A stretch of 64,000 nt of DNA, from the NCBI RefSeq assembly GCF_005869845.1, contig NZ_VAWF01000001.1, positions 62,001 through 126,000 of the forward strand, given 5' to 3'. Numbering within the stretch: position 1 is the stretch's first letter; every line of letters begins with the position of its first letter. A program made the position numbers and the translations under genes. The notes under the pieces were generated by a model. The model did not search any database. It saw only the letters and a program-made list of their open reading frames with translations, and had not been told where the DNA came from. Below are positions 20,007 through 38,589 of this stretch, one piece after another. This DNA is from Fodinibius saliphilus. GTDB taxonomy: Bacteria > Bacteroidota > Rhodothermia > Balneolales > Balneolaceae.

Positions 20007-20693
20007 TTATACTATAGTCTCTTTACCTATTTGAGCTCTTTTTTTAAGGGTGGAAATACTTTCTTGCATATCATCGGCTTTAAATACCGCACTGCCGGCT
20101 ACAAGAACTTCTGCACCAGCCTGGGCTATTTTTTGGATGTTATGCGGTTTTACTCCACCGTCAACTTCAATGACAAAATCGGTACCGGTTTGTTCTCGCA
20201 TCTGTACCAGTTGTTGTAATCGTTGATAGGTAGAGGGAATAAAAGATTGACCGCCAAAGCCGGGATTGACACTCATAAGCAGGACCATTTCGATTTCTCC
20301 TAAAATAGGCTTTATCGCCTCAAGTGAAGTGCCCGGATTGACAGCTACACCGGCAGTGATGTTTTGTGAGTGGATATTTTGAACTGTTCGGTGCAGGTGG
20401 GGGCAAGTTTCTTGGTGAACGGTAATATGGTTAGCACCTGCCGTAACGAAAGCTTGTATATATTTATCTGGGTTTTCTATCATAAGGTGTACATCCAGAA
20501 AAGCATCTGTAGATCGGTTGGCAGCTTCTACAATTCCGGGACCGTAGCTGATATTTGGAACAAAATGACCATCCATAACATCACAGTGCAGCCACCGGAT
20601 GTCAGCTTTATTACATTGTTCAATCTCTTTACCGAGTCTACTGAAATCAGCTGCTAAAATTGAAGGTGCTAAAATAGGAAGTTCAAAATCCAT
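20007..20693 (-). CDS. rpe: ribulose-phosphate 3-epimerase
   Basis: A 228-residue TIM-barrel enzyme interconverting ribulose-5-phosphate and xylulose-5-phosphate in the pentose phosphate pathway. APSILAADFSRLG opens the barrel, HCDVMDGHFVPN and DVHLMIENP supply metal ligands and catalytic aspartates, and MSVNPGFGGQSFIP and EVDGGV follow with the phosphate-binding end. It starts seven bases after the PASTA protein gene and is the last gene of the envelope operon. Confidence 0.96.
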   Translation of the reverse strand: MDFELPILAPSILAADFSRLGKEIEQCNKADIRWLHCDVMDGHFVPNISYGPGIVEAANRSTDAFLDVHLMIENPDKYIQAFVTAGANHITVHQETCPHLHRTVQNIHSQNITAGVAVNPGTSLEAIKPILGEIEMVLLMSVNPGFGGQSFIPSTYQRLQQLVQMREQTGTDFVIEVDGGVKPHNIQKIAQAGAEVLVAGSAVFKADDMQESISTLKKRAQIGKETIV

Positions 20694-20700
20694 GGTAAGG

Positions 20701-21525
20701 TTAATTCTTTGTTGTATCGGGAACTGCTATGTTTTGTGTGGTATCGATAATAGCCCCGGATTCACTTTCTTCTTTTAAATTATGACGTTCCGAGACAACC
20801 AACTTGAGCGTTTTTCCAATAACTACTTGCTTTTTTTTAGGTTGGTAATCCAGTATTACATTCGGATCTACTTCTTTGCTTGATTTAAATCGAATTTCGC
20901 CTACGCGGAGGCCAACTTTCTGTAATTTCTGTTGTGCTTCTGAAAGTCTTAATCCCCTAATATTAGGAATAGTCACCATTTTTTCGCCTAGCCCATCACT
21001 AACAGCAAGGTCTATAAGAGTTCCTTTTGGTACTACTGTTTCGGGATCTATTGATTGACGGAGCACTCTGTTTTTAAACCGGGATGACTCATAACTTACG
21101 GTTCCGATGTCGAGCCCATAGTTCTGTAGTTGTAACCGAGCATTTCGGTAAGAGAGATTCACAACATCCGGAACCTTTACAGTTGGGTTAGATTCGGTAT
21201 TAACAGTAAGGTAGATCTTACGATTCGGTTTGACAATTTCAGCGGGAGAGGGCGTTTGGTCTATAACATAATCAGCGGGATATGCGGTATTCGATCGGCG
21301 TTCGGCTACTTCGGAACGCAGTCCGTATGTTTCTAATTGTTCTTGTGCTTCGTCAAGAGATATTTGAGATACATCAGGTACCGTTAAACCTTCATCATAA
21401 TTTGTATAGGCCGGCATAATGATGGTATCAGCTAATATAAGAAGCAAGGCCCCCAGTGCTATGGTAGAGGCGCCGATGATATAAAAAGTTTTGCTGGTAA
21501 AGATCTTTTTAAGTTTCGACATCAT
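20701..21525 (-). CDS. PASTA-domain membrane-anchored protein
   Basis: A 274-residue protein with one N-terminal membrane segment (about residues 13-35) and three consecutive PASTA repeats (starting near VPDVSQISLDEAQ, VPDVVNLSYRNAR and IPNIRGLRLSEAQ), each about 65-70 residues. PASTA domains bind peptidoglycan fragments in Ser/Thr kinases and PBPs; here no kinase or transpeptidase domain is attached. It ends in a charged, Thr-rich tail. Stand-alone PASTA proteins of this size are common in Bacteroidota-like genomes. Its place between a DUF5683 gene and rpe suggests a cell-wall attached envelope role. Confidence 0.85.
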   Translation of the reverse strand: MMSKLKKIFTSKTFYIIGASTIALGALLLILADTIIMPAYTNYDEGLTVPDVSQISLDEAQEQLETYGLRSEVAERRSNTAYPADYVIDQTPSPAEIVKPNRKIYLTVNTESNPTVKVPDVVNLSYRNARLQLQNYGLDIGTVSYESSRFKNRVLRQSIDPETVVPKGTLIDLAVSDGLGEKMVTIPNIRGLRLSEAQQKLQKVGLRVGEIRFKSSKEVDPNVILDYQPKKKQVVIGKTLKLVVSERHNLKEESESGAIIDTTQNIAVPDTTKN

Positions 21526-21555
21526 GGGCGAAAAATACGGTTCTTTGAGGATTAC

Positions 21556-22461
21556 TTAAAAATGATATTTAAGTGAAAAGCTTTTATATGGATTTAAAAA
21601 ATTGGTATGCGTTTCTAATCGGTTATTTTTAATCTTGACCGTCAGGAATGAATCAAACGCAGATACAATATGATTTAGTATAAGGAGTGATACCATGTTC
21701 CCGGCTAAGCGATAGCTGTCATTGAACTGTTCGGCAAGATCTGCACCTCGGAAAAAGTACCTAGACATATCTGAACCATCCCACGATAGTTGATATTTTG
21801 AAGTGAAGTCACTCCAGCCTGGTCCAAATTGATAATATTTGCTGATCAGTTCATAGTATTGCTGTGAGCCATAGTCTGGCATCACATGAGAAAACTTATT
21901 TCCAATTCCATCATCCGAAAAGACAAATGGAGTATTACGTTCAACATTTCTAAGCAACTCAAGGTCAACTTTGTTCCAATCCTTGTCAGGATCATAGTTA
22001 GCTGTTACCCCAGAAATTTCGTTTGCCAGTTCATTGATATAAGGGTTATTAATTTGTTGGTTTTGATCATGGTATTCTACCAACCATTTGGCATAATTAA
22101 CCACGCTCCAGTTATTGTTGGCGAATCTTTTGTATTGCCGTTCTTCGGCCCTGGCATCACGAAGGTTTTTAATATGCATCCCTACGAAAATGATCTCTGC
22201 AAGAAAATATGCTCCTGCCCGTATCCACTTGCCATTGGCTGCTTGTCCGCTTCCGGGAACGATTGCAGAGCTTAAAAGGGCTAAGCCTGCTTTTTTACGG
22301 ATTGGCTGAAAGAAAGGGGTTGAAGCAGTATAGTTTATCTTGGGTTGTAGTTCTTGAATAGTGATATTGCTTGCATTCGAGGATGAGTTGTTAGGTTGTG
22401 CTCGAACTGCTGTGAGTAGGCCCAAGAGTAAAAATAATATACTGATTCCTTTTTTAGTCAT
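21556..22461 (-). CDS. DUF5683-like exported protein
   Basis: About 301 residues with a signal peptide (MTKKGISILFLLLGLL...VRAQ) and then a conserved region AGLALLSSAIVPGSGQAANGKWIRAGAYFLAEI, the PGxGQ...GK pattern of DUF5683 proteins. Function of the family is unknown. The ATG at 22461 overlaps the stop of the upstream gene by eight bases, better than the TTG at 22482 that opens the longest ORF. A second protein of the same kind is encoded at 62761. The coupling with the large barrel protein upstream suggests a joint role at the envelope. Confidence 0.75.
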   Translation of the reverse strand: MTKKGISILFLLLGLLTAVRAQPNNSSSNASNITIQELQPKINYTASTPFFQPIRKKAGLALLSSAIVPGSGQAANGKWIRAGAYFLAEIIFVGMHIKNLRDARAEERQYKRFANNNWSVVNYAKWLVEYHDQNQQINNPYINELANEISGVTANYDPDKDWNKVDLELLRNVERNTPFVFSDDGIGNKFSHVMPDYGSQQYYELISKYYQFGPGWSDFTSKYQLSWDGSDMSRYFFRGADLAEQFNDSYRLAGNMVSLLILNHIVSAFDSFLTVKIKNNRLETHTNFLNPYKSFSLKYHF

Positions 22462-25400
22462 TGTTGAGAACATCAAAATCAAAAGTTAATCCAAAGTGGA
22501 ATATTAGGTCATTTCCATAATTTACAGTGCCACTTGATGTTTTCGTAATAAATTCATCGGGTAAGTTAATATCAAAATTGTTGAAACCATATGCACCACT
22601 TACAAAAAGTTTCAAAGGAAATAGATAATAACTATTGAAGGCAAATCGTAGTTCTGCTCCGACTCCACTTTTAATAGTTTCATTAATATCAAGTGGTCCA
22701 CCCCACCCATTACCGGCTTCGCCAAATAATCTCAGGTATAATTTATCTAAACTATGACGACCTAATTGTTGGTTAATATTACGAATAATTGGGAAGTTAT
22801 ATGAAATCTGTGCTATCGCCGTACTATTGCCACCGATAGCAAAATAGGGATAGCTGCGCATGCCGGTAAAACCGCCTATATAATCAAGATAAAAAGCATC
22901 ATTGGGCTGATTGAAGTAGCTGAATCCACGGCCGTAAATTGATATTGCAGAACTATTTGAGAGTGGGTAACCAAACCGAATGGTTGCTTCCAGTGAATGA
23001 TTATTGACAGATTTATAAACGGGAGATAGAGTATTGTCTTCAATCTCGTAGTCATCCAGTAATTTGCTGGGCTCATAAGAATAACGAATCAAGCTTCGGA
23101 GCCCAATAGGAGCAACGTCATTATGGGGATATCGTAGCAGGTTTTCATATACATAGGCTGCTGTGAAGGTGGTCCCTTTATAGTATTCAGAGGAGGATGA
23201 AGGAATGAACTGCTGGATCTCTCGGGAATAGAAACCGTCTGTTTGAACCTTATAAGGACTGTATCGGGCCCCAACTTCAACTACGTTGTGGGCATCAATT
23301 TTACTTCGCAGATAAAGATTAGCCTCCCAGATATTATATGCAATATCAGCAGAGGTGGTATCGGGCAGGCAAGAAGTACAGGAGAACTCTTCAATTGATA
23401 AGCCGTTGGCCACATTGCGTCGCATATTGTATAGCTCAACAGAGACAGTAGGAGACCACTTCTTTTCAATAAATGGTAATCCCTCGTATTCTATGATGGT
23501 AAAAAGGTCTCGATCTAGATCGGTTAACCGGGAAGGAGAAACGAAGTTACCAATGCTATTACTGGGTTCAGAAGCTATTCCAAAAAGAGCGCCGCCAAAA
23601 ATATTTAGTTTATCAGTGACTTCGCGTGAGCTGAAATAGGTGCCTATTTTAAGGTCTCGGAGTAGGTTTTTACCCAAATCCCCAAATCGTCCGGCGGTAA
23701 GTAATCGACCATTATTCCCATATTTTTTTGAATAATTATCGAATCGCAGGACTGGGTAAAAACTGAAACTTGTATAGTTATTTTCGTAAGTCGTTAGAAC
23801 AGGAGAATTAAGGTGCCCACGACCATTCATATTAAGCTGTAGCGTATCTTTTTGAGTCAATTGCTGCAACTTGGCATGAGGCAATGCTTCAATATGGGTA
23901 AGGTCAGGTCGTATTGGAATTTTATCCAGCGTTTTAAGGGAAAGGTTCGATTGTTGGTAACTGCCTTTGTTTAGTTGATTAGTTTTGGTAGATAGATCTA
24001 TCCCTGAAATAACGTAACCTTCGGCTTTAAATTCGGCAAAATAGAGCTTGTTTCCAGATTGGTGTGGCATAAAAGAGCCTCCCAACACATTTGTCAGCTT
24101 TTGTGCTTTAGGGTCTTTATTATTCAATGGAATGCGATAGATATTATAAATACCATCCGGATCAGCTGAATAATAGAGATAGTTTCCGGAGCTACCTACG
24201 AAGGGATCACGATAATTAGTAAGCGTATCGTTGAGTACCGGCCTGGTTTCACCGCTTTCGATATCGAGGTAATATATATTCCTGGAATAGGAATCGGCTG
24301 TTGAAAAGTAGATACTATTGCCCTTGGGATGCCAGGTCGGCGTATAAACTTGTTGACCTTTCGTAAAAGTTGTCAGGGGGGTAATGGTTCCGGTTTTTAA
24401 ATCTATCTCGGATAGGTTACTGCTTCCCCCAGTTTGTTGAACAGCAACCGCCTTCTGTTTCTCTGGATGCCAGGCCGGAGATGTAAGTCGTTTGCTGTGG
24501 GTGAGCCTCTGTTTAGAAGCTGAATCTATGTTGTAAATAAAGAGATCATTATAGCGTTCTCCGAAACGGTTTAGCTTCTGTTTACTAAAGATTAATGATT
24601 GGCCATCGGGGGAGTACGAAAAAGAAGATTGAATATGCTTGAGTACTGGTTCGCCGGAATGCTTTTTCGTCTGTTTGGGATAAGAGTTAGGGGGAATCCC
24701 TATATTTATCGCATGACTATTTTTTTTACCATCTGTCAAAGGTTCTATAAAAAGTTGTGTGTCGGAAGATTGAAAATTTCTATTCGAAAGGTATGCAATA
24801 TTTTTTCTATCCGGTGACAGGTTGGGGTAGAAGTTGAAAAAACCGCTATCCTGTACGGTTTCGGTACTAGTAAATACTTGTTCTGAAGTGGCATCAGTAT
24901 AGTTTTCAGTAGAATGGTCAATGAAATCCTGGAATAATATATGTGCTTCTATTCCGGTTGCTGCTTTTAGTGCTTCATCGATGGTAAAAGTTCCGTCATA
25001 AGCTAAAGCCTCAGATATCTTAGGAATGATGGACTCCCCAAAGCGATTGGCCAAATAGGTAGTAAAGGCAAAGCCCTGGTTATAAATACGTTCTCGTTGC
25101 AGGGCATTTTTAGAGGTAAAAAATGTCATTCCATCAAAAGAGATAGGACTCTCATTAAGTAGGGCAGTACGGAAGAGCATGTCGCGGTGTGAATCCCAAA
25201 AGTCGTGGTAAAAATTACTCCGTTGATATTGGGCTACGCCTTCGGCAAACCATGCTGGTACATTAATACTGGCAAAAGGATAGGTGAGGATACCTTTGGG
25301 ATATCCATAGAGTACATCGGGCCTGCGTACATCGGAGTATGAAAGCCATTGAAGGTATATAGCCGGTAGGCGACGTCCCTTTTTCATAGCAACTTGCAGC

Positions 25401-25822
25401 TGTACAATATGCGTGAACTCGTGGCTGATAACATCCCAAAGCCAATCTTGCGAACCACGTAATGGACTATTTAAGGAAGGTACCCATATTTCGATCTGGT
25501 TATCAAAAAAGTAGGCAGCACCGTTGGAGTAATCTTCACGATCATTGAGGACGATATCTATCTTGGTGTCTGGTTCATACTGGTATAAGGAGGTAATGGA
25601 CGGATAAACTTCTTCGGCTATTCGAGAAGCTACCTGAGCAGATCGACTGTTTCCTTGTTGGAAATGAACCTGGAAGTGTTCGCTATTAACAGTGAACCAA
25701 GGAAGATGGTTTTGGGGATAGTTATATTGCCTGGGGGAAAGCTGTGCCATTGCAGAATGTGAAAGGCTTGCAAACCCAATCCCGAAAACGAGAAGAACGA
25801 TATATAGATATTTACTTCTCAT
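22454..25822 (-). CDS. gluzincin-type peptidase fused to beta-propeller and outer-membrane barrel-like region
   Basis: A 1122-residue exported protein. After a signal peptide (cut near SAMAQ) residues 35-300 form a peptidase MA-like domain with H134-E-F-T-H138 and the probable third zinc ligand Glu194 in WFAEGVAQY. Residues about 320-620 contain repeated PDxxxIAY/SPDGQSLIFS/WHPKGNSIYFS blades of a TolB/PD40-type propeller. The last 400 residues are beta-rich with barrel-like strands and GGFTGMRSYPYF, reminiscent of the Omp85 barrel loop, ending in alternating aromatic strands. It starts directly after the stop of the T9SS-sorted protein gene. Such proteins exist in Bacteroidota-like genomes as PD40 proteins of unknown substrate; the peptidase site here looks intact. 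Confidence 0.75.
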   Translation of the reverse strand: MRSKYLYIVLLVFGIGFASLSHSAMAQLSPRQYNYPQNHLPWFTVNSEHFQVHFQQGNSRSAQVASRIAEEVYPSITSLYQYEPDTKIDIVLNDREDYSNGAAYFFDNQIEIWVPSLNSPLRGSQDWLWDVISHEFTHIVQLQVAMKKGRRLPAIYLQWLSYSDVRRPDVLYGYPKGILTYPFASINVPAWFAEGVAQYQRSNFYHDFWDSHRDMLFRTALLNESPISFDGMTFFTSKNALQRERIYNQGFAFTTYLANRFGESIIPKISEALAYDGTFTIDEALKAATGIEAHILFQDFIDHSTENYTDATSEQVFTSTETVQDSGFFNFYPNLSPDRKNIAYLSNRNFQSSDTQLFIEPLTDGKKNSHAINIGIPPNSYPKQTKKHSGEPVLKHIQSSFSYSPDGQSLIFSKQKLNRFGERYNDLFIYNIDSASKQRLTHSKRLTSPAWHPEKQKAVAVQQTGGSSNLSEIDLKTGTITPLTTFTKGQQVYTPTWHPKGNSIYFSTADSYSRNIYYLDIESGETRPVLNDTLTNYRDPFVGSSGNYLYYSADPDGIYNIYRIPLNNKDPKAQKLTNVLGGSFMPHQSGNKLYFAEFKAEGYVISGIDLSTKTNQLNKGSYQQSNLSLKTLDKIPIRPDLTHIEALPHAKLQQLTQKDTLQLNMNGRGHLNSPVLTTYENNYTSFSFYPVLRFDNYSKKYGNNGRLLTAGRFGDLGKNLLRDLKIGTYFSSREVTDKLNIFGGALFGIASEPSNSIGNFVSPSRLTDLDRDLFTIIEYEGLPFIEKKWSPTVSVELYNMRRNVANGLSIEEFSCTSCLPDTTSADIAYNIWEANLYLRSKIDAHNVVEVGARYSPYKVQTDGFYSREIQQFIPSSSSEYYKGTTFTAAYVYENLLRYPHNDVAPIGLRSLIRYSYEPSKLLDDYEIEDNTLSPVYKSVNNHSLEATIRFGYPLSNSSAISIYGRGFSYFNQPNDAFYLDYIGGFTGMRSYPYFAIGGNSTAIAQISYNFPIIRNINQQLGRHSLDKLYLRLFGEAGNGWGGPLDINETIKSGVGAELRFAFNSYYLFPLKLFVSGAYGFNNFDINLPDEFITKTSSGTVNYGNDLIFHFGLTFDFDVLNND

Positions 25823-28800
25823 TTAATGTACTACCACTATTTTTATCATTTTTTGGGCTTTTTCCCCGTCTACCGTTGCAGTAACCATAGCAAAGTATAA
25901 TCCGCTACTCCAGTTCTGAGTATCAATGCGATGTTCCTCTGGGGCTTCACCAGTAGCTACAATTCGTTTATCAAGGATAACTGAACCTCCAGCCGTAATT
26001 ATCTTTAAATCCACTTCTCCTGCAGACGAAGTTTGGAATCGTATATTTGTATAATCTTTTGCCGGATTTGGCCAATTATAGGTTTCCTTTTTAACCAATA
26101 CTTGTGATTCTCCCTCGGTAGAAGGGAGAGATGGATTGTTGAGAGAACCGGTTATTTTGTTGTAGGGTTCATTTCCATAGCGGCTTTTCCATAACACCTC
26201 TTTAATAGAAGTAAGTTGCCATGCTTTTAACTCACCATGGTGGCTAATTGCATATAATGTATTATTATTAATAAAAGGATGTATAGGGAGGTTCTTACGT
26301 TTTGATATTCCGCCTACATAAAGTGGGAAGCCATCAACATCTTCACTGCGACTGTTATACGCTTGGATATTCATACCTAGGCTATCTTGTGTTGGAATAT
26401 AGAGGTGATGCTGATCTGTTTGTTTAATATCAGCGATAAGTGGGGTGCCCACAAAAGTATTTCCCGGGGGTGGTTCTACAGGAAAATAAGAGAGCATTGC
26501 CCCGTTGATATTTCGGGCTTCAAGCGCTCCCGTTTTTTTATTGATAAATAAGAAATCCAGGTTGTTATCACCGTTGATATCTGCCATTGCCGGCCAGCCA
26601 ATAGCAGTGTCTTTAACAATATGGAGGGGAGACGAACTTCGAGAATCAAAAAGTAAAAGACTGTTATCGGTCAGGAGAAAAAAGCCTGAATCGTCTTTTG
26701 AAAGTTGAACTGCCCCGGTATAAAGTCGGGCAGAGGAAGTAGGGATATCGTATGATCTATTATCAGCAGTAATTTGGAGCTCATTATTAACAATTTGAGC
26801 ATATTTGCCATTGATTGCACCAGATCGTTGGCTATTAGCGGGTAATGGGTTTAAGAAAGAACCGTCGGAGATATCAATACGTTGTGCAGTGAAATCAAGC
26901 AGTAATGTTTGATCATTTAGTGAACTCAGGAATCCACTGTTAGCGTTGGCTTGGGTATTCCATTTATTAACCCATTGGGTACCATCCCACCGCCATGACA
27001 TTAAATTGATAGTATTAGAGGTGGGTTCTTCCGCTAAAATAAGCGAGTTTCCTCGATATGGTTGTTGTGGTGTGCCTGATTGAAAATCGAAAGGGGGAGT
27101 GCTGGTATCAGATAATTGAACGGCATAGGTTGATTGTTGGCTGGGGATAATTAAAAAAGAATCGGCGGTGCTTTGATATACCGAAAGCTCCATTGGATAA
27201 GATCGACTGTAGGCCTCCGTTTGCTTAACATAGGTTTTTTGGTCCTGGATCGTCTTATGGGGAAGAGATGCAGGATGAATGTTTTTAGTTGTTAAAGGGC
27301 GTACTTTGAATGTAGCTACTTTCTGGTTATCCGAAAAATCATAAAACTCGAAAAAACTACGGGCCCCTGAGTTGCTATGATTTGAAGGATGAGTGTCTGG
27401 ACCAAAACGGTTATCATATAATGTGAGCGTATCGCCGGAAAGGGTAACCACAGAGGCATCATTATTATTCCACCAAAAATCAAAGGCGGTGCCCCGGGCT
27501 TGCGTACTTAAATTACTGTTAGCAGGCCGGCCAATATCTTGGGCTCCATCGGCTTCTTCTAGGTCGACCCCGCGTCGTTGGGGGTCGATATTAATCCCTT
27601 GGGAATATAGGGATTCATTTATGAGTGCTTCATCAATATGCCAGAGAAGGATACCTCCATTGAGAAGACGATCATCGCCTGTATTTTCCTCTCCGTCATC
27701 TCCCACTGTCATACCGCCGGGCAGACTCCAGTCAAAGGTACTAACATCGGTTACAACTCCTTTTTCCAAAAGAGCGGTGAATCCATTTGTTTGATTGACA
27801 AATGTCAGATTATCATTTTCAAAAGTCTGATTTTTCACATCTCCATCAGCTGTTTCAATAGTAAGTGTTACACCCTCTGTATTTGGATCGCGATGTCGGT
27901 TTTCAATTAGGAAGTATTCACTTTCGGATAAGTTGTACTTTGCAATACTGTTGTTTTGATGTAACCCAGAGGCCGGGAGGGAGATTTCTCCATTGGTATA
28001 TTTATCAATTGAAAAGGGCTTTTCCCAACCCAGGAAAACTTTTTCCCATGCCGAGGGTTCGGGTGGAAATAGGCCTTGATAAGAAAAGAAGCTTTCTCCA
28101 TCCATCAATCCAAATCGCCCAATTCCGGATGCTCCGGTCTCTGTATTAAAAAGGTCGGGTAAGCCCAGGTGGCTACCTATTGAGGCGGTCAACAGTCCGT
28201 TCAGGGAGAGTTGTAAAACAAATGGTTGGCCGGTTATGTCTTCGCCGGGGCGTGAAAGGGTGCGGGGAAGCACCAATGAGTTGGTAACTCGAAAAGAACT
28301 GTTATTAACTGAAAATCCATCAAAAGAAGGAAGGTTGAGCAGTGAACCAAGAGATTCTTTATTGAGATATAGAGACGGAATATCTTGTGGAGTCTTATCT
28401 AAACTTGTGCCTACTAATTCGATATCTCGGCCCACTCCAGCATGAAAAATCACAAAAGCTGTTTTTTGAGAGTCTAATGTATCAGTTGCCAGCCCCCCTT
28501 TCTGGCGAACAGCTTTCCAGGTGTCTGATACAAGTTGAGCAAGTTTTTCATTTGTAAATGTTTCGCCTGTTGGTGAATAGGTTGCCATCTTTTGGGGAAG
28601 TTGGTATATCTTATCTAAAACTTGATAAGAAATATGAATCTTTTGCCCCGATACAGTTTCAAAGTAGTTTTTTGCAAATTTCAGATGGTGTTCAAAATAT
28701 GTACGGTTATGGGGGAGAGGATCGATGGTTATATCAGGGGTATCAAGATAGGAAAGGTTATCGTTTCCAAAAATCCCTTTACCGGTCGTTAGACGATTTT

Positions 28801-28999
28801 CGTCGGGTTGAAATTGAACACGGACTGCAATGATAGTTAAAGAGTCAGGGACATTCGTATGAAGTGATGAATGGGTAGATATTGAGTGACTCCTAACCAG
28901 CTGGTGTTGTTGTGCAGAGATAGAATAGGTAGAAAAAAGTAAAAGCATACTCACAGAGAGTATGCTTTTGAAAATCTTTAATTCCAGATCGTTCTTCAT
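25823..28999 (-). CDS. T9SS-sorted M6-like protein with degenerate zinc site
   Basis: A 1058-residue exported protein with signal peptide (cut near SISAQ). Residues about 50-480 follow the M6 (immune inhibitor A-like) layout, with VRVQF, FFETVSGQKI-like text and GLPDLFNT. The HExxHxxGxxD zinc motif is lost: positions expected to be His, Glu and His are Ala272, Ser273 and Ser276, and only the terminal Asp282 remains. The middle part resembles FG-GAP/propeller-like repeats (ADINGDNNLDFLFI). The C-terminal 80 residues (NWPNPAKDYTNIRF ... KMIKIVVVH) are a type A T9SS sorting domain. It lies between a PorV-like gene and the gluzincin-barrel gene, with a zero-base junction to the latter. Confidence 0.8.
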   Translation of the reverse strand: MKNDLELKIFKSILSVSMLLLFSTYSISAQQHQLVRSHSISTHSSLHTNVPDSLTIIAVRVQFQPDENRLTTGKGIFGNDNLSYLDTPDITIDPLPHNRTYFEHHLKFAKNYFETVSGQKIHISYQVLDKIYQLPQKMATYSPTGETFTNEKLAQLVSDTWKAVRQKGGLATDTLDSQKTAFVIFHAGVGRDIELVGTSLDKTPQDIPSLYLNKESLGSLLNLPSFDGFSVNNSSFRVTNSLVLPRTLSRPGEDITGQPFVLQLSLNGLLTASIGSHLGLPDLFNTETGASGIGRFGLMDGESFFSYQGLFPPEPSAWEKVFLGWEKPFSIDKYTNGEISLPASGLHQNNSIAKYNLSESEYFLIENRHRDPNTEGVTLTIETADGDVKNQTFENDNLTFVNQTNGFTALLEKGVVTDVSTFDWSLPGGMTVGDDGEENTGDDRLLNGGILLWHIDEALINESLYSQGINIDPQRRGVDLEEADGAQDIGRPANSNLSTQARGTAFDFWWNNNDASVVTLSGDTLTLYDNRFGPDTHPSNHSNSGARSFFEFYDFSDNQKVATFKVRPLTTKNIHPASLPHKTIQDQKTYVKQTEAYSRSYPMELSVYQSTADSFLIIPSQQSTYAVQLSDTSTPPFDFQSGTPQQPYRGNSLILAEEPTSNTINLMSWRWDGTQWVNKWNTQANANSGFLSSLNDQTLLLDFTAQRIDISDGSFLNPLPANSQRSGAINGKYAQIVNNELQITADNRSYDIPTSSARLYTGAVQLSKDDSGFFLLTDNSLLLFDSRSSSPLHIVKDTAIGWPAMADINGDNNLDFLFINKKTGALEARNINGAMLSYFPVEPPPGNTFVGTPLIADIKQTDQHHLYIPTQDSLGMNIQAYNSRSEDVDGFPLYVGGISKRKNLPIHPFINNNTLYAISHHGELKAWQLTSIKEVLWKSRYGNEPYNKITGSLNNPSLPSTEGESQVLVKKETYNWPNPAKDYTNIRFQTSSAGEVDLKIITAGGSVILDKRIVATGEAPEEHRIDTQNWSSGLYFAMVTATVDGEKAQKMIKIVVVH

Positions 29000-29026
29000 T
29001 AATCAGATCTAATCCTGAGTTATTAA

Positions 29027-30133
29027 TTAAAAATTCAGGACTAAGCCAAATCGTGTTGTATTTGCTAAGGGATGGTTTTCATCTCCCAAAGTAGAGATAT
29101 AGCTAAAGTCGATACCCACAAATTTATAGCGCAAGCCTGCTCCCAGCGTCATAAACTGACGATCACCATTATTGGGATCTTCATAATAATAGCCCGTTCT
29201 GACTGCAAATAAATCGTTATACCAGTATTCAAGGCCGGTTGCAACCATCAGCTGTTCTGCTAAAGATAATGTTGCGGTATTACCACCACCTGTTTTTCTT
29301 TCAAAACTATCCCATGATTTAAATAACGAGCCAATAGGGCCTAAAGGTTTGCCATCGGAATCTAAACGGGCCATTATTTTTGATATATCATTGGCAATAG
29401 TAATAGTATTTATGCCTTCTTTGTCAAGGTTTGTAGTAAAAGCCCAACCTACTCGTAATACTGTTGGCAAGGGATCTTTTTGACCATTATCGGTATAAGT
29501 CATATTGGGGCCTATATTCGAAATGTTTAAACCGGCATCAAATGAGGCATCCTGCTGCAGAAAAGTAAATGTATTTGATTGGTACATAGTTGCAATATCA
29601 ACACCAATGCTGGAACCGGGATTGATTTTTTGGCCTTGTACATCGCCGTCAGCTAAACTACTGTAGATAAATCGAAACCCTGAGCCCAATGACCAATTTT
29701 CATTAAGTTTTAGTCCATATGATAAACCTGCAGCTAGTTCATAACTGTTAAATCGATTGATTTCATTACCTTCGGCACTTGTTCGTAACTGTTCCCCCAG
29801 ATTAAGATAAGTGACGTGAGCTCCAAAAGTACCAATATCTTCCATATGATACTTGCCTACGAGGTAATCATAAAAAAGATCGGCATTAAATTGAGGTAGC
29901 CATTCACTGTGGGTAATACTTACTTGGTTACCCTTTTGAAAGGCAAGACCAGCAGGATTCCAGAATACAGCTGAAGCATTATCAGCAATGGCGACCCCCG
30001 TATTCCCCATACCGGCTGCTCGTGAGTCGGGTTCAATTTGTAGAAATGGTACTGAAGTTATACCTACTTGAGCATAAGAAATGCTGACTGAGAGTAAAAG
30101 GAATGATAAAACTGAAAGTACTTTCTTAATCAT
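29027..30133 (-). CDS. porV: PorV/PorQ-like outer-membrane barrel protein
   Basis: About 368 residues with a signal peptide (MIKKVLSVLSFLLL...SYAQ) and a barrel-type sequence. The start of the mature part, LQIEPDSRAAGMGNTGVAIADNASAVFWNPAGLA, is the hallmark of the PorV/PorQ family (UPF0164), and the chain ends in a Phe-terminated beta strand as outer-membrane proteins do. PorV acts as shuttle for T9SS cargo; the next gene encodes a T9SS-sorted protein, so a dedicated carrier is plausible. The longest ORF starts at a TTG (30145); ATG 30133 gives a cleaner signal peptide. Confidence 0.85.
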   Translation of the reverse strand: MIKKVLSVLSFLLLSVSISYAQVGITSVPFLQIEPDSRAAGMGNTGVAIADNASAVFWNPAGLAFQKGNQVSITHSEWLPQFNADLFYDYLVGKYHMEDIGTFGAHVTYLNLGEQLRTSAEGNEINRFNSYELAAGLSYGLKLNENWSLGSGFRFIYSSLADGDVQGQKINPGSSIGVDIATMYQSNTFTFLQQDASFDAGLNISNIGPNMTYTDNGQKDPLPTVLRVGWAFTTNLDKEGINTITIANDISKIMARLDSDGKPLGPIGSLFKSWDSFERKTGGGNTATLSLAEQLMVATGLEYWYNDLFAVRTGYYYEDPNNGDRQFMTLGAGLRYKFVGIDFSYISTLGDENHPLANTTRFGLVLNF

Positions 30134-30260
30134 AAGGTCAGGCAATTATAAATCATTTATGAGTATAAACAACAATCACGAAACACTAGAACTTCGTAAA
30201 TTTCACTCTTGATTACCAATTATCGCACAATTATAAATGTATCATAATATTTTGAAATAA

Positions 30261-30289
30261 AAAAGACGGGACAACTGAAGTTGTCCCGC
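30261..30289 (-). terminator. Rho-independent terminator after the thiolase operon
   Basis: A nine-base perfect stem (CGGGACAAC 30267-30275 with GTTGTCCCG 30280-30288) with a TGAA loop. Read on the minus strand it is followed by TCTTTTTTATTT, so it ends transcripts from the 30315-35260 genes and separates them from the porV operon. Confidence 0.9.
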
Positions 30290-30314
30290 CATAAAAATAG
30301 GCCTACTGGAAGTA

Positions 30315-36625: not shown

Positions 36626-36656
36626 AGCCCGATGGGTAGATCGTCGGGCTTTTTTT
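36626..36656 (+). terminator. Rho-independent terminator after ridA
   Basis: AGCCCGA (36626-36632) pairs with TCGGGCT (36644-36650) and is followed by seven T on the + strand. It lies between the convergent ridA and M23 peptidase genes and touches the stop of the latter. Confidence 0.85.
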
Positions 36657-38589
36657 ATTGTTGAAGTTCGAGGCTAAATGATTTTTTGTTTCCCATCTTG
36701 TCGAAGACGGTGCCTTGAATGTTCATGATCTCGGAGGGTTCAAAATCTGGATGATAGTACACAAAGCGATCATCTTCGGGTTCATATTCAGCAATGCCGG
36801 GGACGCCATTAACTGAAATGTGGGTTTTGGTATAATCTATTCCTGATAAATTATCTTTGGCTTTAATTATAATCACCCATTTTTTATCGGGCCGTTGGCG
36901 TAGGTGAGGGGTGCTTAGTCGTGGTGCAGTAGTATCTCTTTGTAAATTAAATGTGCCGGTAGAAGATGCTTGGCCAATGATAAACTCTTTAGTGAACTTT
37001 GTAGGGATGAGTTCCCAATCTTGTTTGCCGAACCTATCATATTTATATAACGATAAATTAGTGGTATCTGTAAGCATCGAATCTCTATCTATATAGACTT
37101 TGTATGATTCTCTAAGCGGGTAGGTTTCGGGGACAATATCAACGGTCAAGGAGTCAGAACGATATTTTTTTACCCTCATCCCTATAGAAACGGTATCATA
37201 AAATGTATCTTTTGGGAAAAGAGCAAATCCTTGCTGATTTGTAGCCGGTAACACTTTTTCTTCATTAGATATTACCCGGTAAAAAGTGAGCGGGCCAAGA
37301 TTGGGTGTGTTTATAAAAAGAGAACCGGAATCTTCGAGTGGAATTGTAATGGTACTACTGTGAGTAATAAAATGGTTTGAATCAGCAGCCACTGTTAGGT
37401 GTGAAAAAGTATCTCTATGTATGCTCAGCCAATCATTAAACCAATCCCACTGATATATCGAAGAGATATTATGGGATGTTATTTTTCCCTCTTTAAGGGA
37501 CAATTCTTTTCTGTTGCGTTTAGATTTTTGAACATCAAGAGTTATGGTAGCATAACTGGAGTTCCCAAAAAAATCAGTGGCTTTAATTGTGACTTCATGT
37601 TTGCCGGGGGGGAGATCGATTTTTCCTTTAGATTTATTCGTCTTATAAAAGGGTAAGGTATTTCCATCGGCAATAAATAATCGCTGATATCCGCCTTTAT
37701 CTTGTTGTAAAAAGGGATAGACTCGGTCCAAAAACATCTGATCCGTTTCCCGGTAAGAAAAGCTGTCAACACGAGATCTAAAATATTGCTCACCATTTAC
37801 AGTAAGAGAGAGCTCATAGGCAGCGTAGGCGTTATTTACGTGGTTCGATTGATCAAAGACATCCACAGCCAATCCTACAGGACCGGTGACTTTGATGGTT
37901 CCGGCTTCATAGGTATTATTTCCAGACCACGTTTGTTTTGTATAGATACGATTTTCATCTTCAACAGAAGAAAGAGGAGTTAATGGTTCTACCGCAATAG
38001 CCTGAATTTGGGGGGCAATAGTGTCATTAACTTTTAAGTTTGTTAGAAGGGGATTGAAAGGCTTGTGTGAGGGAGTGCGTAATTCAAAATGGAGATGAGG
38101 AGGACCTATCCCTGATGCTCCGCTGTACCCAATTACATCACCCTGTTGCACCTTAATACCACGCCAGCCCCAAGATCGATCAATCTCAAATTTGTAGCCT
38201 TCGGCAATTCGTACCGAGTCTGCCAGTTGCTGTAGCTGATCATTAAAAGAAAGCAGATGTGCATATAAAGAATAAGAGCCATCATTGTGTCTTAGATAAA
38301 TTACTTTACCATATCCCCGTGGACCAATTGCGACACGTTCAATAACACCATCACGGGTAGCATAGACTTCATAACCACGACGTCCCCAGGTTTTGATGTC
38401 AAGGGCAGCATGAAAATGTTGTGACCGGGTTTCGGCAAAGGTAGATGTAAGGTATGGACTAGCTTCGGTAGGCCAAAGGTAATCGGCAGAAAAGATTTCA
38501 TTTTGATAGGATTGTGGCTGTGCCAGAGTAGGGTGGGCCAGCACAAGAGACCAAATTATAAATAGGAAGAGATATTGTGCTTTCATCAA
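36655..38589 (-). CDS. M23 family (LytM-type) metallopeptidase, exported
   Basis: A 644-residue exported protein with signal peptide (cut near TLAQ). Residues about 50-190 form an M23/LytM peptidase domain: HFHAALDI (HxxxD zinc ligands), YGKVIYLRH, YSLYAHL and the catalytic HLHFEL are all present, so it should cut peptidoglycan cross-links or act as a divisome-type activator. The remaining 450 residues are beta-rich, Ig-like in character, with a late DNLSGIDYTKTHISVNG segment. Its start is adjacent to the stop of the FAH hydrolase gene (zero spacing). Confidence 0.88.
   Translation of the reverse strand: MMKAQYLFLFIIWSLVLAHPTLAQPQSYQNEIFSADYLWPTEASPYLTSTFAETRSQHFHAALDIKTWGRRGYEVYATRDGVIERVAIGPRGYGKVIYLRHNDGSYSLYAHLLSFNDQLQQLADSVRIAEGYKFEIDRSWGWRGIKVQQGDVIGYSGASGIGPPHLHFELRTPSHKPFNPLLTNLKVNDTIAPQIQAIAVEPLTPLSSVEDENRIYTKQTWSGNNTYEAGTIKVTGPVGLAVDVFDQSNHVNNAYAAYELSLTVNGEQYFRSRVDSFSYRETDQMFLDRVYPFLQQDKGGYQRLFIADGNTLPFYKTNKSKGKIDLPPGKHEVTIKATDFFGNSSYATITLDVQKSKRNRKELSLKEGKITSHNISSIYQWDWFNDWLSIHRDTFSHLTVAADSNHFITHSSTITIPLEDSGSLFINTPNLGPLTFYRVISNEEKVLPATNQQGFALFPKDTFYDTVSIGMRVKKYRSDSLTVDIVPETYPLRESYKVYIDRDSMLTDTTNLSLYKYDRFGKQDWELIPTKFTKEFIIGQASSTGTFNLQRDTTAPRLSTPHLRQRPDKKWVIIIKAKDNLSGIDYTKTHISVNGVPGIAEYEPEDDRFVYYHPDFEPSEIMNIQGTVFDKMGNKKSFSLELQQ

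Follow-up and report, generated by a model that had tools for sequence, protein, structure and literature searches.

A type IX secretion module of Fodinibius saliphilus and its relatives that persists where its sortase appears to be lost, together with a conserved RNA element

Introduction

What brings a carrier barrel, a protease-like protein without a catalytic site and an intact zinc protease together in one gene cluster? We addressed this question for a minus-strand cluster in Fodinibius saliphilus, within a window of 64,000 nucleotides (nt) of the forward strand of contig NZ_VAWF01000001.1 (RefSeq assembly GCF_005869845.1, positions 62,001 to 126,000); coordinates below are counted from the first letter of this window. 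A preliminary description of the DNA had proposed a compact envelope operon and a surface complex in which the inactive protein presents or guards substrate for the active one. The observation of the cluster was right, and the cluster is more conserved than is visible from one window; the surface complex was the weaker part of the proposal. The genes belong to the outer-membrane end of a type IX secretion system (T9SS), and the cluster is its PorU/PorV locus with porU missing. The finding is a lineage-specific T9SS module that persists where the sortase appears to be lost, plus a conserved RNA element.

Results

The order PorV-M6i-MAprop is conserved across genomes

All six minus-strand open reading frames (ORFs) of the preliminary description were found in the order and at the places it had given. 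The first encodes PorV, the T9SS type A carrier barrel (29027..30133, minus strand; the ORF tool chose an alternative TTG start at 30145). The label "PorV-like" had understated the case, as the protein passed the cut-off of the PorV equivalog NF033710 (289.8 vs 250 bits) and matched the solved PorV chain 6h3i_F with E=3.8e-45. PorV is followed by M6i, an inactive M6-like protein of 1058 residues with a C-terminal T9SS tail (25823..28999, minus strand; NF052323), and by MAprop, which combines a gluzincin domain, a TolB-like propeller and a BamA-like barrel (22454..25822, minus strand; PF13485, PD40 and fold matches).

We searched 148 genomes of the phylum with NF052323 and obtained 57 over the cut-off, including the window's own genome (G000; G and L numbers are the genome and locus labels of the analysis). 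Four further genomes (f10) scored 358-388 bits, with matches limited to the M6 domain. From each of the remaining 60 M6i genomes the region surrounding M6i (at most 20 kb) was taken, which gave a 60-locus phylum set, and records titled Balneolota, Rhodothermota, Ignavibacteriota or unassigned gave an 80-locus named set; the two sets overlap in genomes. The results showed that M6i directly followed PorV in 59 of the 60 phylum-set loci (median gap 6 nt), and that MAprop lay beside PorV-M6i in 52, a count that includes L094, where MAprop is also alongside M6i with an unclear start. The M6i-MAprop gap, measured in 51 loci, ranged from -106 to 1725 nt and was at most 60 nt in 44. A DUF5683 gene was present within 0.8 kb past MAprop in 49/60 loci, and porU preceded PorV in 51/60. 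In the named set, the PorV-M6i-MAprop order was present wherever the contig reached far enough.

The commonest order in relatives was porU-porV-M6i-MAprop-DUF5683, in Balneolota, part of Rhodothermota, Ignavibacteriota and their kin, and the wider conserved unit is this series with or without porU at its head. The arrangement is ancient, and in its ancestral form it begins with porU, which encodes the T9SS sortase. PASTA, rpe and phoH genes stood downstream only in loci of the window's order (f1, f2) and their named kin. The preliminary description had made its reading depend on the large genes being regular neighbours in related genomes, which they are; chance neighbourhood was rejected on the same counts (59/60 and 52/60). 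Weighing against so neat a picture, porU was kept on the opposite strand in L078, M6i had no PorV nearby in L082, and three of the 80 named-set loci contained split ORFs (L120, L146, L167). Separately, the M6i proteins of L086, L088 and L089 measured 872-884 amino acids (aa), clearly under the usual 990-1090.

PorU, PorZ and PorQ were not found in the window's lineage, and PorV and M6i-MAprop are kept

The gene absent from the window but present in relatives is porU, which encodes a protein of about 1300 aa with invariant GHG and ATC stretches; in the PorU-bearing relatives within the window's family it sits between the thiolase gene and porV. The alignment of the relatives' PorU produced near-full-length matches in other Bacteroidota genomes. 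Within the window's family, a full PorU match was obtained in 14 of 19 genomes and in none of the other five (G000, G081, G108, G119, G061): the PorU rows shown for four of these five were tail-only, and G081 had none among the matches listed (best E 6.9e-8). Likewise, no full match occurred in any of 14 named genomes with a porU-less locus (best E 2.9e-11 to 1.1e-6), where the PorU matches listed were all tail-only, while all six named PorU-bearing controls gave a full match. These five family members and 14 named genomes are the 19 PorU-less genomes referred to below. A PorU hidden elsewhere in the window's own genome was rejected, as both the PorU model and the relatives' alignment matched only tails in G000; a C25 search of G000, run with no positive control and not counted, also gave no match. 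Inside the window, the PorU model matched the M6i tail and, as its only other and weak match (19.8 bits), a 644-aa ORF carrying an M23 peptidase domain (36655-38589, minus strand).

PorZ showed the same distribution. No match passed the cut-off in the 19 PorU-less genomes, with no match at all in G000 and one partial match of 21 bits, below the cut-off, in G108; PorZ was over the cut-off in 8/8 PorU-bearing family members tested, 19/19 further M6i genomes and 5/6 controls. Of 42 genomes, 23 had PorQ over its cut-off, and these were exactly the 23 PorU-bearing ones, with no such match in the 19 PorU-less genomes; the best PorQ score in G000 (86.7 bits vs a cut-off of 220) fell at PorV's own place. 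Of 23 genomes tested for SprA, 22 had it at full length, among them 5/5 PorU-less ones (G000: TIGR04189, 1516.8 bits, positions 12-2317 of 2319). PorV and M6i were present in all 19 PorU-less genomes and MAprop in 18; in L148 the contig ends inside M6i. The five PorU-less family members had 13, 7, 32, 26 and 8 T9SS tail matches compared with 17-76 (median 57) in the other 14, a significant reduction when relatedness is ignored (Mann-Whitney p 0.003). As judged from sequence searches, PorU, PorZ and PorQ, which make up the set for cleavage and anchoring, were not found in the window's lineage, in which PorV and M6i-MAprop, and SprA where checked, are kept.

Several points weigh against this picture. 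The absences of PorU, PorZ and PorQ come from profile searches of mostly draft genomes; the completeness listed for the five PorU-less family members is about 99-100%, and the 14 named PorU-less genomes carry no such figure, so that some of their absences could be gaps. The SprA data cover five of the 19 PorU-less genomes. In G162 (Gracilimonas amylolytica), PorU and PorQ were found with no PorZ match, which may be a draft gap or a half-way state of loss. 

In favour of the picture, the PorU state needed four changes in a quick M6i tree of 83 rows, three of them forced by starred branches. G061 falls in a starred group with PorU-bearing Gracilimonas, and the PorU-bearing L143 and L155 fall within a PorU-less Rhodohalobacter group, although L155 has a long branch and may be misplaced.

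Two side observations concern the same proteins. Of the 13 tail matches in G000, five C-terminal parts were scanned and showed the tail, one of them with a TIG domain. PorU-like proteins of a second, longer kind (about 1640-1930 aa) were present in G125, G079, G133, G019, G005, G137, G030, G072, G126, G033, G007 and G167, none from the window's family among the matches listed; G126 and G007 show this longer kind alone among the matches listed, and the other holders also have the usual PorU.

Compared with the PorU-PorV-PorQ-PorZ complex of Porphyromonas gingivalis, the cluster shares an equivalog PorV, the porU-porV order in relatives and an adjacent protein made of propeller plus tail. The window's lineage differs in that PorU, PorQ and PorZ were not found and in having M6i and MAprop in addition; in the available part of one account, the T9SS attachment complex has four members, with M6i and MAprop not among them (PMC5562754).

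M6i combines an M6 domain without its zinc site, a propeller and a sorting tail

M6i matched NF052323 ("T9SS-dependent M6-like inactivated metalloprotease") with 1412 bits vs a cut-off of 600 over the whole model (1-1043 of 1043). It is therefore a full-length member of this family, for which the scan gives only the family name, and one full M6i per genome was found among the matches listed. The AlphaFold2 model of M6i had a mean predicted local distance difference test score (pLDDT) of 89 and a predicted template modelling score (pTM) of 0.86. Its pseudoprotease domain (residues about 51-571; 27287..28849, minus strand) aligned with the M6 zymogen 4yu5_A (Z 21.2, 404 residues aligned, 4.3 A). 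It is followed by a BamB-like beta-propeller (residues about 572-930; 26210..27286, minus strand), which aligned with BamB 8orr (Z 21.1, 305 aligned, 3.8 A), and by a T9SS type A sorting tail (residues about 973-1056; 25832..26083, minus strand; PF18962, 36.9 bits, cut-off 27). VIA-align on M6i covered mainly residues 571-930, with other parts resting on few rows.

The likeness to immune inhibitor A (M6) peptidases lies in the fold of about the first 570 residues, and the difference lies in the zinc site. At the position equivalent to HExxH, M6i reads ASIGS (residues 272-276; 28172..28186, minus strand), and HExxH was missing there in every readable homologue (59/60 in the phylum set and 77/80 in the named set, one and three loci being unreadable, respectively). 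L120 and L121 have an HExxH at another place in the protein. M6i thus lacks the HExxH zinc site that defines an active M6 peptidase, and the earlier claim of a dead M6-like T9SS cargo is borne out by the family score, the tail and ASIGS. The M6 domain was also the best-conserved part of M6i, with 21% of columns at 90% or above, vs 17% for the tail and 2% for the propeller. Such strong conservation of an M6 domain without its catalytic site fits a working pseudoprotease, and we infer that M6i serves as a conserved scaffold in which a non-catalytic M6 fold is joined to a propeller.

M6i adjoins porV, with porU on the other side in relatives, and in combining a propeller with a tail it resembles PorZ (5m11, Foldseek rank 3). 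These features could suggest M6i as a replacement for PorU or PorZ in cleaving or anchoring T9SS cargo. However, PorZ was present in 27/27 PorU-bearing M6i genomes tested, indicating coexistence, and all readable M6i homologues have lost the catalytic HExxH. We dropped this substitution, now very improbable, on the coexistence counts.

MAprop joins a Peptidase MA domain and a propeller to a BamA-like barrel

The preliminary description had reported a third protein with an intact HEFTH, propeller repeats and a barrel-like end, and each of these elements was confirmed. The AlphaFold2 model of MAprop, built on a 63-row alignment of window and named-locus proteins, had a pLDDT of 85 and a pTM of 0.85. 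The gluzincin domain (residues about 28-315; 24878..25741, minus strand) just passed PF13485, Peptidase MA (33.2 bits vs a cut-off of 32.4), and its zinc-site residues H134, E135, H138 (HEFTH, 134-138) and E194 were identical in 63/63 aligned rows, as expected of Peptidase MA. HExxH plus WxxEG was present in 52/52 phylum-set and 74/75 named-set loci, the exception being a split ORF. The propeller (residues about 316-612; 23987..24877, minus strand; PD40) resembled E. coli TolB 1crz (Z 25.2, 238 aligned, 2.7 A), TolB matches in general reaching Z 25-26. VIA-align on MAprop covered mainly residues 216-617, with other parts resting on few rows.

The C-terminal barrel (residues about 686-1120; 22463..23767, minus strand) aligned with Deinococcus radiodurans BamA 8xnb_A (Z 23.3, 334 aligned, 4.2 A) and has about 16 strands on reading of the model, which assigns it to the Omp85/BamA barrel fold. 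The loop 6 motif of Omp85/BamA proteins is R-G-F/Y; at this position MAprop reads GMRSY in the window, with R in 48 of 63 rows, then S in 47 or G in 11, then Y in 62. GMRSY and an FxExGxxW-like stretch are conserved in the barrel. The gluzincin domain and propeller occupy the place ahead of the barrel, and the Pfam scan of MAprop found no POTRA domain (no separate POTRA search was made). Because soluble domains stand in front of a BamA-like barrel, as in BamA, the protease and propeller of MAprop are inferred by analogy to lie on the periplasmic side.

MAprop resembles BamA, BamB and BepA in bringing together, close to the outer membrane, a BamA-like barrel, a propeller and a zinc protease, and differs from them in being a single chain, in showing no POTRA domain in the Pfam scan and in carrying Peptidase MA, not M48. 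Its plan recalls the beta-barrel assembly machinery (BAM) with BamB and BepA, as far as the available part of PMC13067283 describes that machinery; this is an analogy and not membership. Several same-class genomes without M6i encode proteins that have HExxH together with a MAprop-like propeller (L207 and L209-L213; 999-1085 aa), which look like a broader family.

M6i and MAprop are coupled even when unlinked

Eight of the 60 phylum-set loci had no adjacent MAprop. One of them ends at a contig edge, and all seven genomes searched whole hold an orthologue elsewhere (1065-1328 bits), accompanied by DUF5683 within a 1.5-kb flank in three (G013, G087, G079). The same MAprop search, of 56 genomes in all, was positive in 11/11 M6i-bearing genomes and found an orthologue in 0/45 M6i-less ones, where the best of the matches listed (sorted) was partial and scored 153.7 bits.

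Rate covariation was assessed from pairwise distances in 34 loci after rpe, PhoH and PASTA had been regressed out. The residual correlation between M6i and MAprop was 0.64, and none of 2000 permutations reached it. DUF5683 correlated at 0.48 with M6i and 0.47 with MAprop, and PorV at 0.16 and 0.14. Removal of six long rows gave 0.62 for M6i-MAprop, 0.57 and 0.47 for DUF5683 and 0.18 and 0.15 for PorV. Restricted to PorU-bearing loci, the analysis also showed covariation of PorV (0.41 and 0.55); restricted to PorU-less loci, it gave a lower M6i-DUF5683 correlation of 0.19. Both shifts complicate the picture and leave M6i-MAprop as the only steady link. The earlier claim that carrier, dead protease and live protease are coupled agrees with their adjacency and co-occurrence, joined for M6i-MAprop by correlated rates. 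Against reading much into this coupling, shared transfer of the block can yield rate covariation, and the structural models are of single chains.

Alternatively, M6i might be just one T9SS cargo among others and MAprop might do housekeeping as a protease of the outer membrane, the two being neighbours for historical reasons. The typical type A tail of M6i is compatible with ordinary cargo, which counts against our interpretation, and some same-class genomes that lack M6i have paralogues showing HExxH and a propeller match. Yet the M6i that adjoins PorV in 59/60 loci is the single full copy per genome among the matches listed, and MAprop co-occurs with M6i in 7/7 genomes even when unlinked; we consider the historical explanation rather unlikely.

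In the surface complex of the preliminary description, the live protease would receive substrate that dead M6i has captured or screened. This reading draws on the same gene coupling and the residual covariation of 0.64, and a binding module would also be expected to show the high conservation of the dead M6 domain, which exceeds that of the other parts of M6i. The topology suggested by the folds argues otherwise: the N-terminal domains before a BamA-like barrel face the periplasm in BamA, and M6i, as cargo, should end outside. With the protease in the periplasm and M6i outside, the two would meet only during M6i transit or across the membrane, which makes a single surface complex presenting substrate improbable. 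The periplasmic placement is itself drawn from folds and the analogy with BamA, a point that counts against our own interpretation as well.

A terminator-like hairpin is enriched in the M6i signal-peptide codons

The gene upstream of porV is a thiolase gene by family scan, and an intrinsic terminator-like site lies 3' of it (30265..30290, minus strand; 11-bp stem plus T-run, -19.4 kcal/mol), making a unit start at porV probable. Downstream of MAprop are genes for a DUF5683-like protein (21556..22482, minus strand), a PASTA protein (20701..21525, minus strand; PF03793, three repeats) and rpe (20007..20693, minus strand; TIGR01163, 287 bits). The DUF5683 gene named earlier was in place, but its Pfam score (PF18935, 24.1 bits) was under the cut-off of 26.7. 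As claimed, the junctions from porV to rpe are short or overlapping: gaps of 27 nt and 0 nt, then an overlap (20 nt with the ATG start, 29 nt with the TTG start), then gaps of 30 nt and 7 nt. The conclusion that the products are made together is less secure, as a second terminator-like hairpin lies inside the M6i start (28941..28969, minus strand; 12-bp stem, loop of 5, then a T-run; -16.1 kcal/mol, z -5.2), within the signal-peptide codons.

We counted hairpins with a stem of at least 10 bp plus a T-run in the first 150 nt of each gene. Such a hairpin was present in 34/76 M6i homologues vs 0.75 expected from synonymous shuffles, and at neighbouring starts in 0/76 MAprop, 0/72 PorV and 1/46 PorU genes (1/194 in all). 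It was also found in 30/60 phylum-set loci, some from the same genomes, and another ORF choice gave 32/75 M6i genes vs 1/690 other gene starts and 5/1451 other M6i windows. Folding of the first 90 nt, which needs no hairpin definition, gave a mean z of -2.26 for M6i with 43/76 below -2. Control-gene means ranged from -0.18 to +0.39, with 0/76 MAprop, 0/72 PorV, 3/46 PorU, 4/60 DUF5683 and 2/41 rpe below -2. When the T-run condition was dropped, a stem was found in 36/76 M6i genes (1.70 expected), and in 0/72 PorV, 1/46 PorU and 2/60 DUF5683 genes; T after these M6i stems, which were not chosen by their tail, exceeded the codon expectation in 30/36. Relatedness among the homologues makes all these figures rough.

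In 18 loci inspected by reading, the hairpin lay over the N-terminal signal-peptide stretch. It also occurred in other Balneolota clades and some Ignavibacteriota, with stem sequence and register differing between clades. When pair types were compared by loop register, the rows had been pre-selected for the hairpin, and the pairing rate proves nothing. An Rfam search over the hairpin region returned one match, far below the gathering score. On the other side of the account, the hairpin was missing in 42/76 named homologues, MAprop had 4/76 stems vs 1.35 expected without the T-run condition, and the counts by linkage (27/52 MAprop-linked and 2/7 detached loci) are too few to tie the hairpin to linkage. 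The structure is predicted and statistically supported, and its function is a matter of interpretation.

The hairpin suggests an attenuator between porV and M6i-MAprop. An attenuator after porV would fit the need for excess PorV suggested for Flavobacterium johnsoniae in the available part of PMC12618676. It is also quite possible that the hairpin is no terminator and sets mRNA stability or signal-peptide translation: it lies within the coding region over the signal peptide, many M6i stems are AT-rich, and A-rich and T-rich signal-peptide codons favour pairing. Nevertheless, PorV, MAprop and PorU starts carry 0, 0 and 1 such hairpins, the T content behind the stem exceeds what codons predict, and the window's hairpin comes near the thiolase terminator-like site in stability.

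Discussion

We propose with moderate confidence that the cluster is a lineage-specific, sortase-independent extension of the outer-membrane stage of the T9SS, including a periplasmic MAprop and an attenuating hairpin. As M6i and MAprop are kept where no sortase was found, they would act independently of it, either at the PorV/SprA stage or in a separate task. M6i would be exported through SprA and then taken by PorV via its tail; without PorU, to judge from P. gingivalis porU mutants, the tail would not be removed and M6i would remain bound to PorV at the surface. Tails are also retained by PorU and PorZ, which are cargo too, as stated in the available part of PMC10202324, and M6i would be a third tail-retaining resident. 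MAprop would be an Omp85-type barrel with its zinc protease and propeller on the periplasmic side, most likely maturing, guarding or assembling M6i or its carrier barrel, as BepA and BamB serve BAM. The hairpin with its T-run would probably end many transcripts past porV unless M6i is under translation, resulting in much PorV and little M6i-MAprop.

A bolder idea is that PorV-M6i-MAprop forms a second dedicated outer-membrane assembly machine on the BamA-BamG-BamH plan, with an Omp85 insertase carrying a built-in periplasmic protease, M6i as a canopy held by PorV, and an output set by the attenuator; we regard this as speculative and improbable. The F. johnsoniae BAM with BamG and BamH, as far as the available part of PMC12611786 goes, offers the likeness of an Omp85 barrel grouped with a FadL-like barrel and a surface protein. 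In the present cluster, PorV takes the place of the second barrel and a T9SS cargo that of the surface protein, and the set is known from genes and single-chain models, so that the comparison would be one of analogy and not of membership.

The preliminary description knew of no described system of this make-up. The combination was indeed absent from the literature searched, and our searches of open-licence PubMed Central papers listed none dealing with the cluster or with a T9SS clade lacking PorU; M6i itself, however, is already an NCBIfam family. What is new beyond NF052323 is the coupling to MAprop, the absent sortase and the hairpin.

By published description, type A T9SS cargo is finished by PorU, PorZ and PorQ. 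In a clade with two Rhodohalobacter strains among the records, the three were not found while PorV and tail-bearing cargo remain, so that PorV function without a sortase becomes testable. The hairpin in signal-peptide codons, if true, would be an unusual way of setting subunit ratios in an envelope operon. As a pair that occurs in Balneolota, Rhodothermota and Ignavibacteriota and is retained in genomes where no sortase was found, M6i and MAprop are candidates for a previously unrecognised part of the T9SS.

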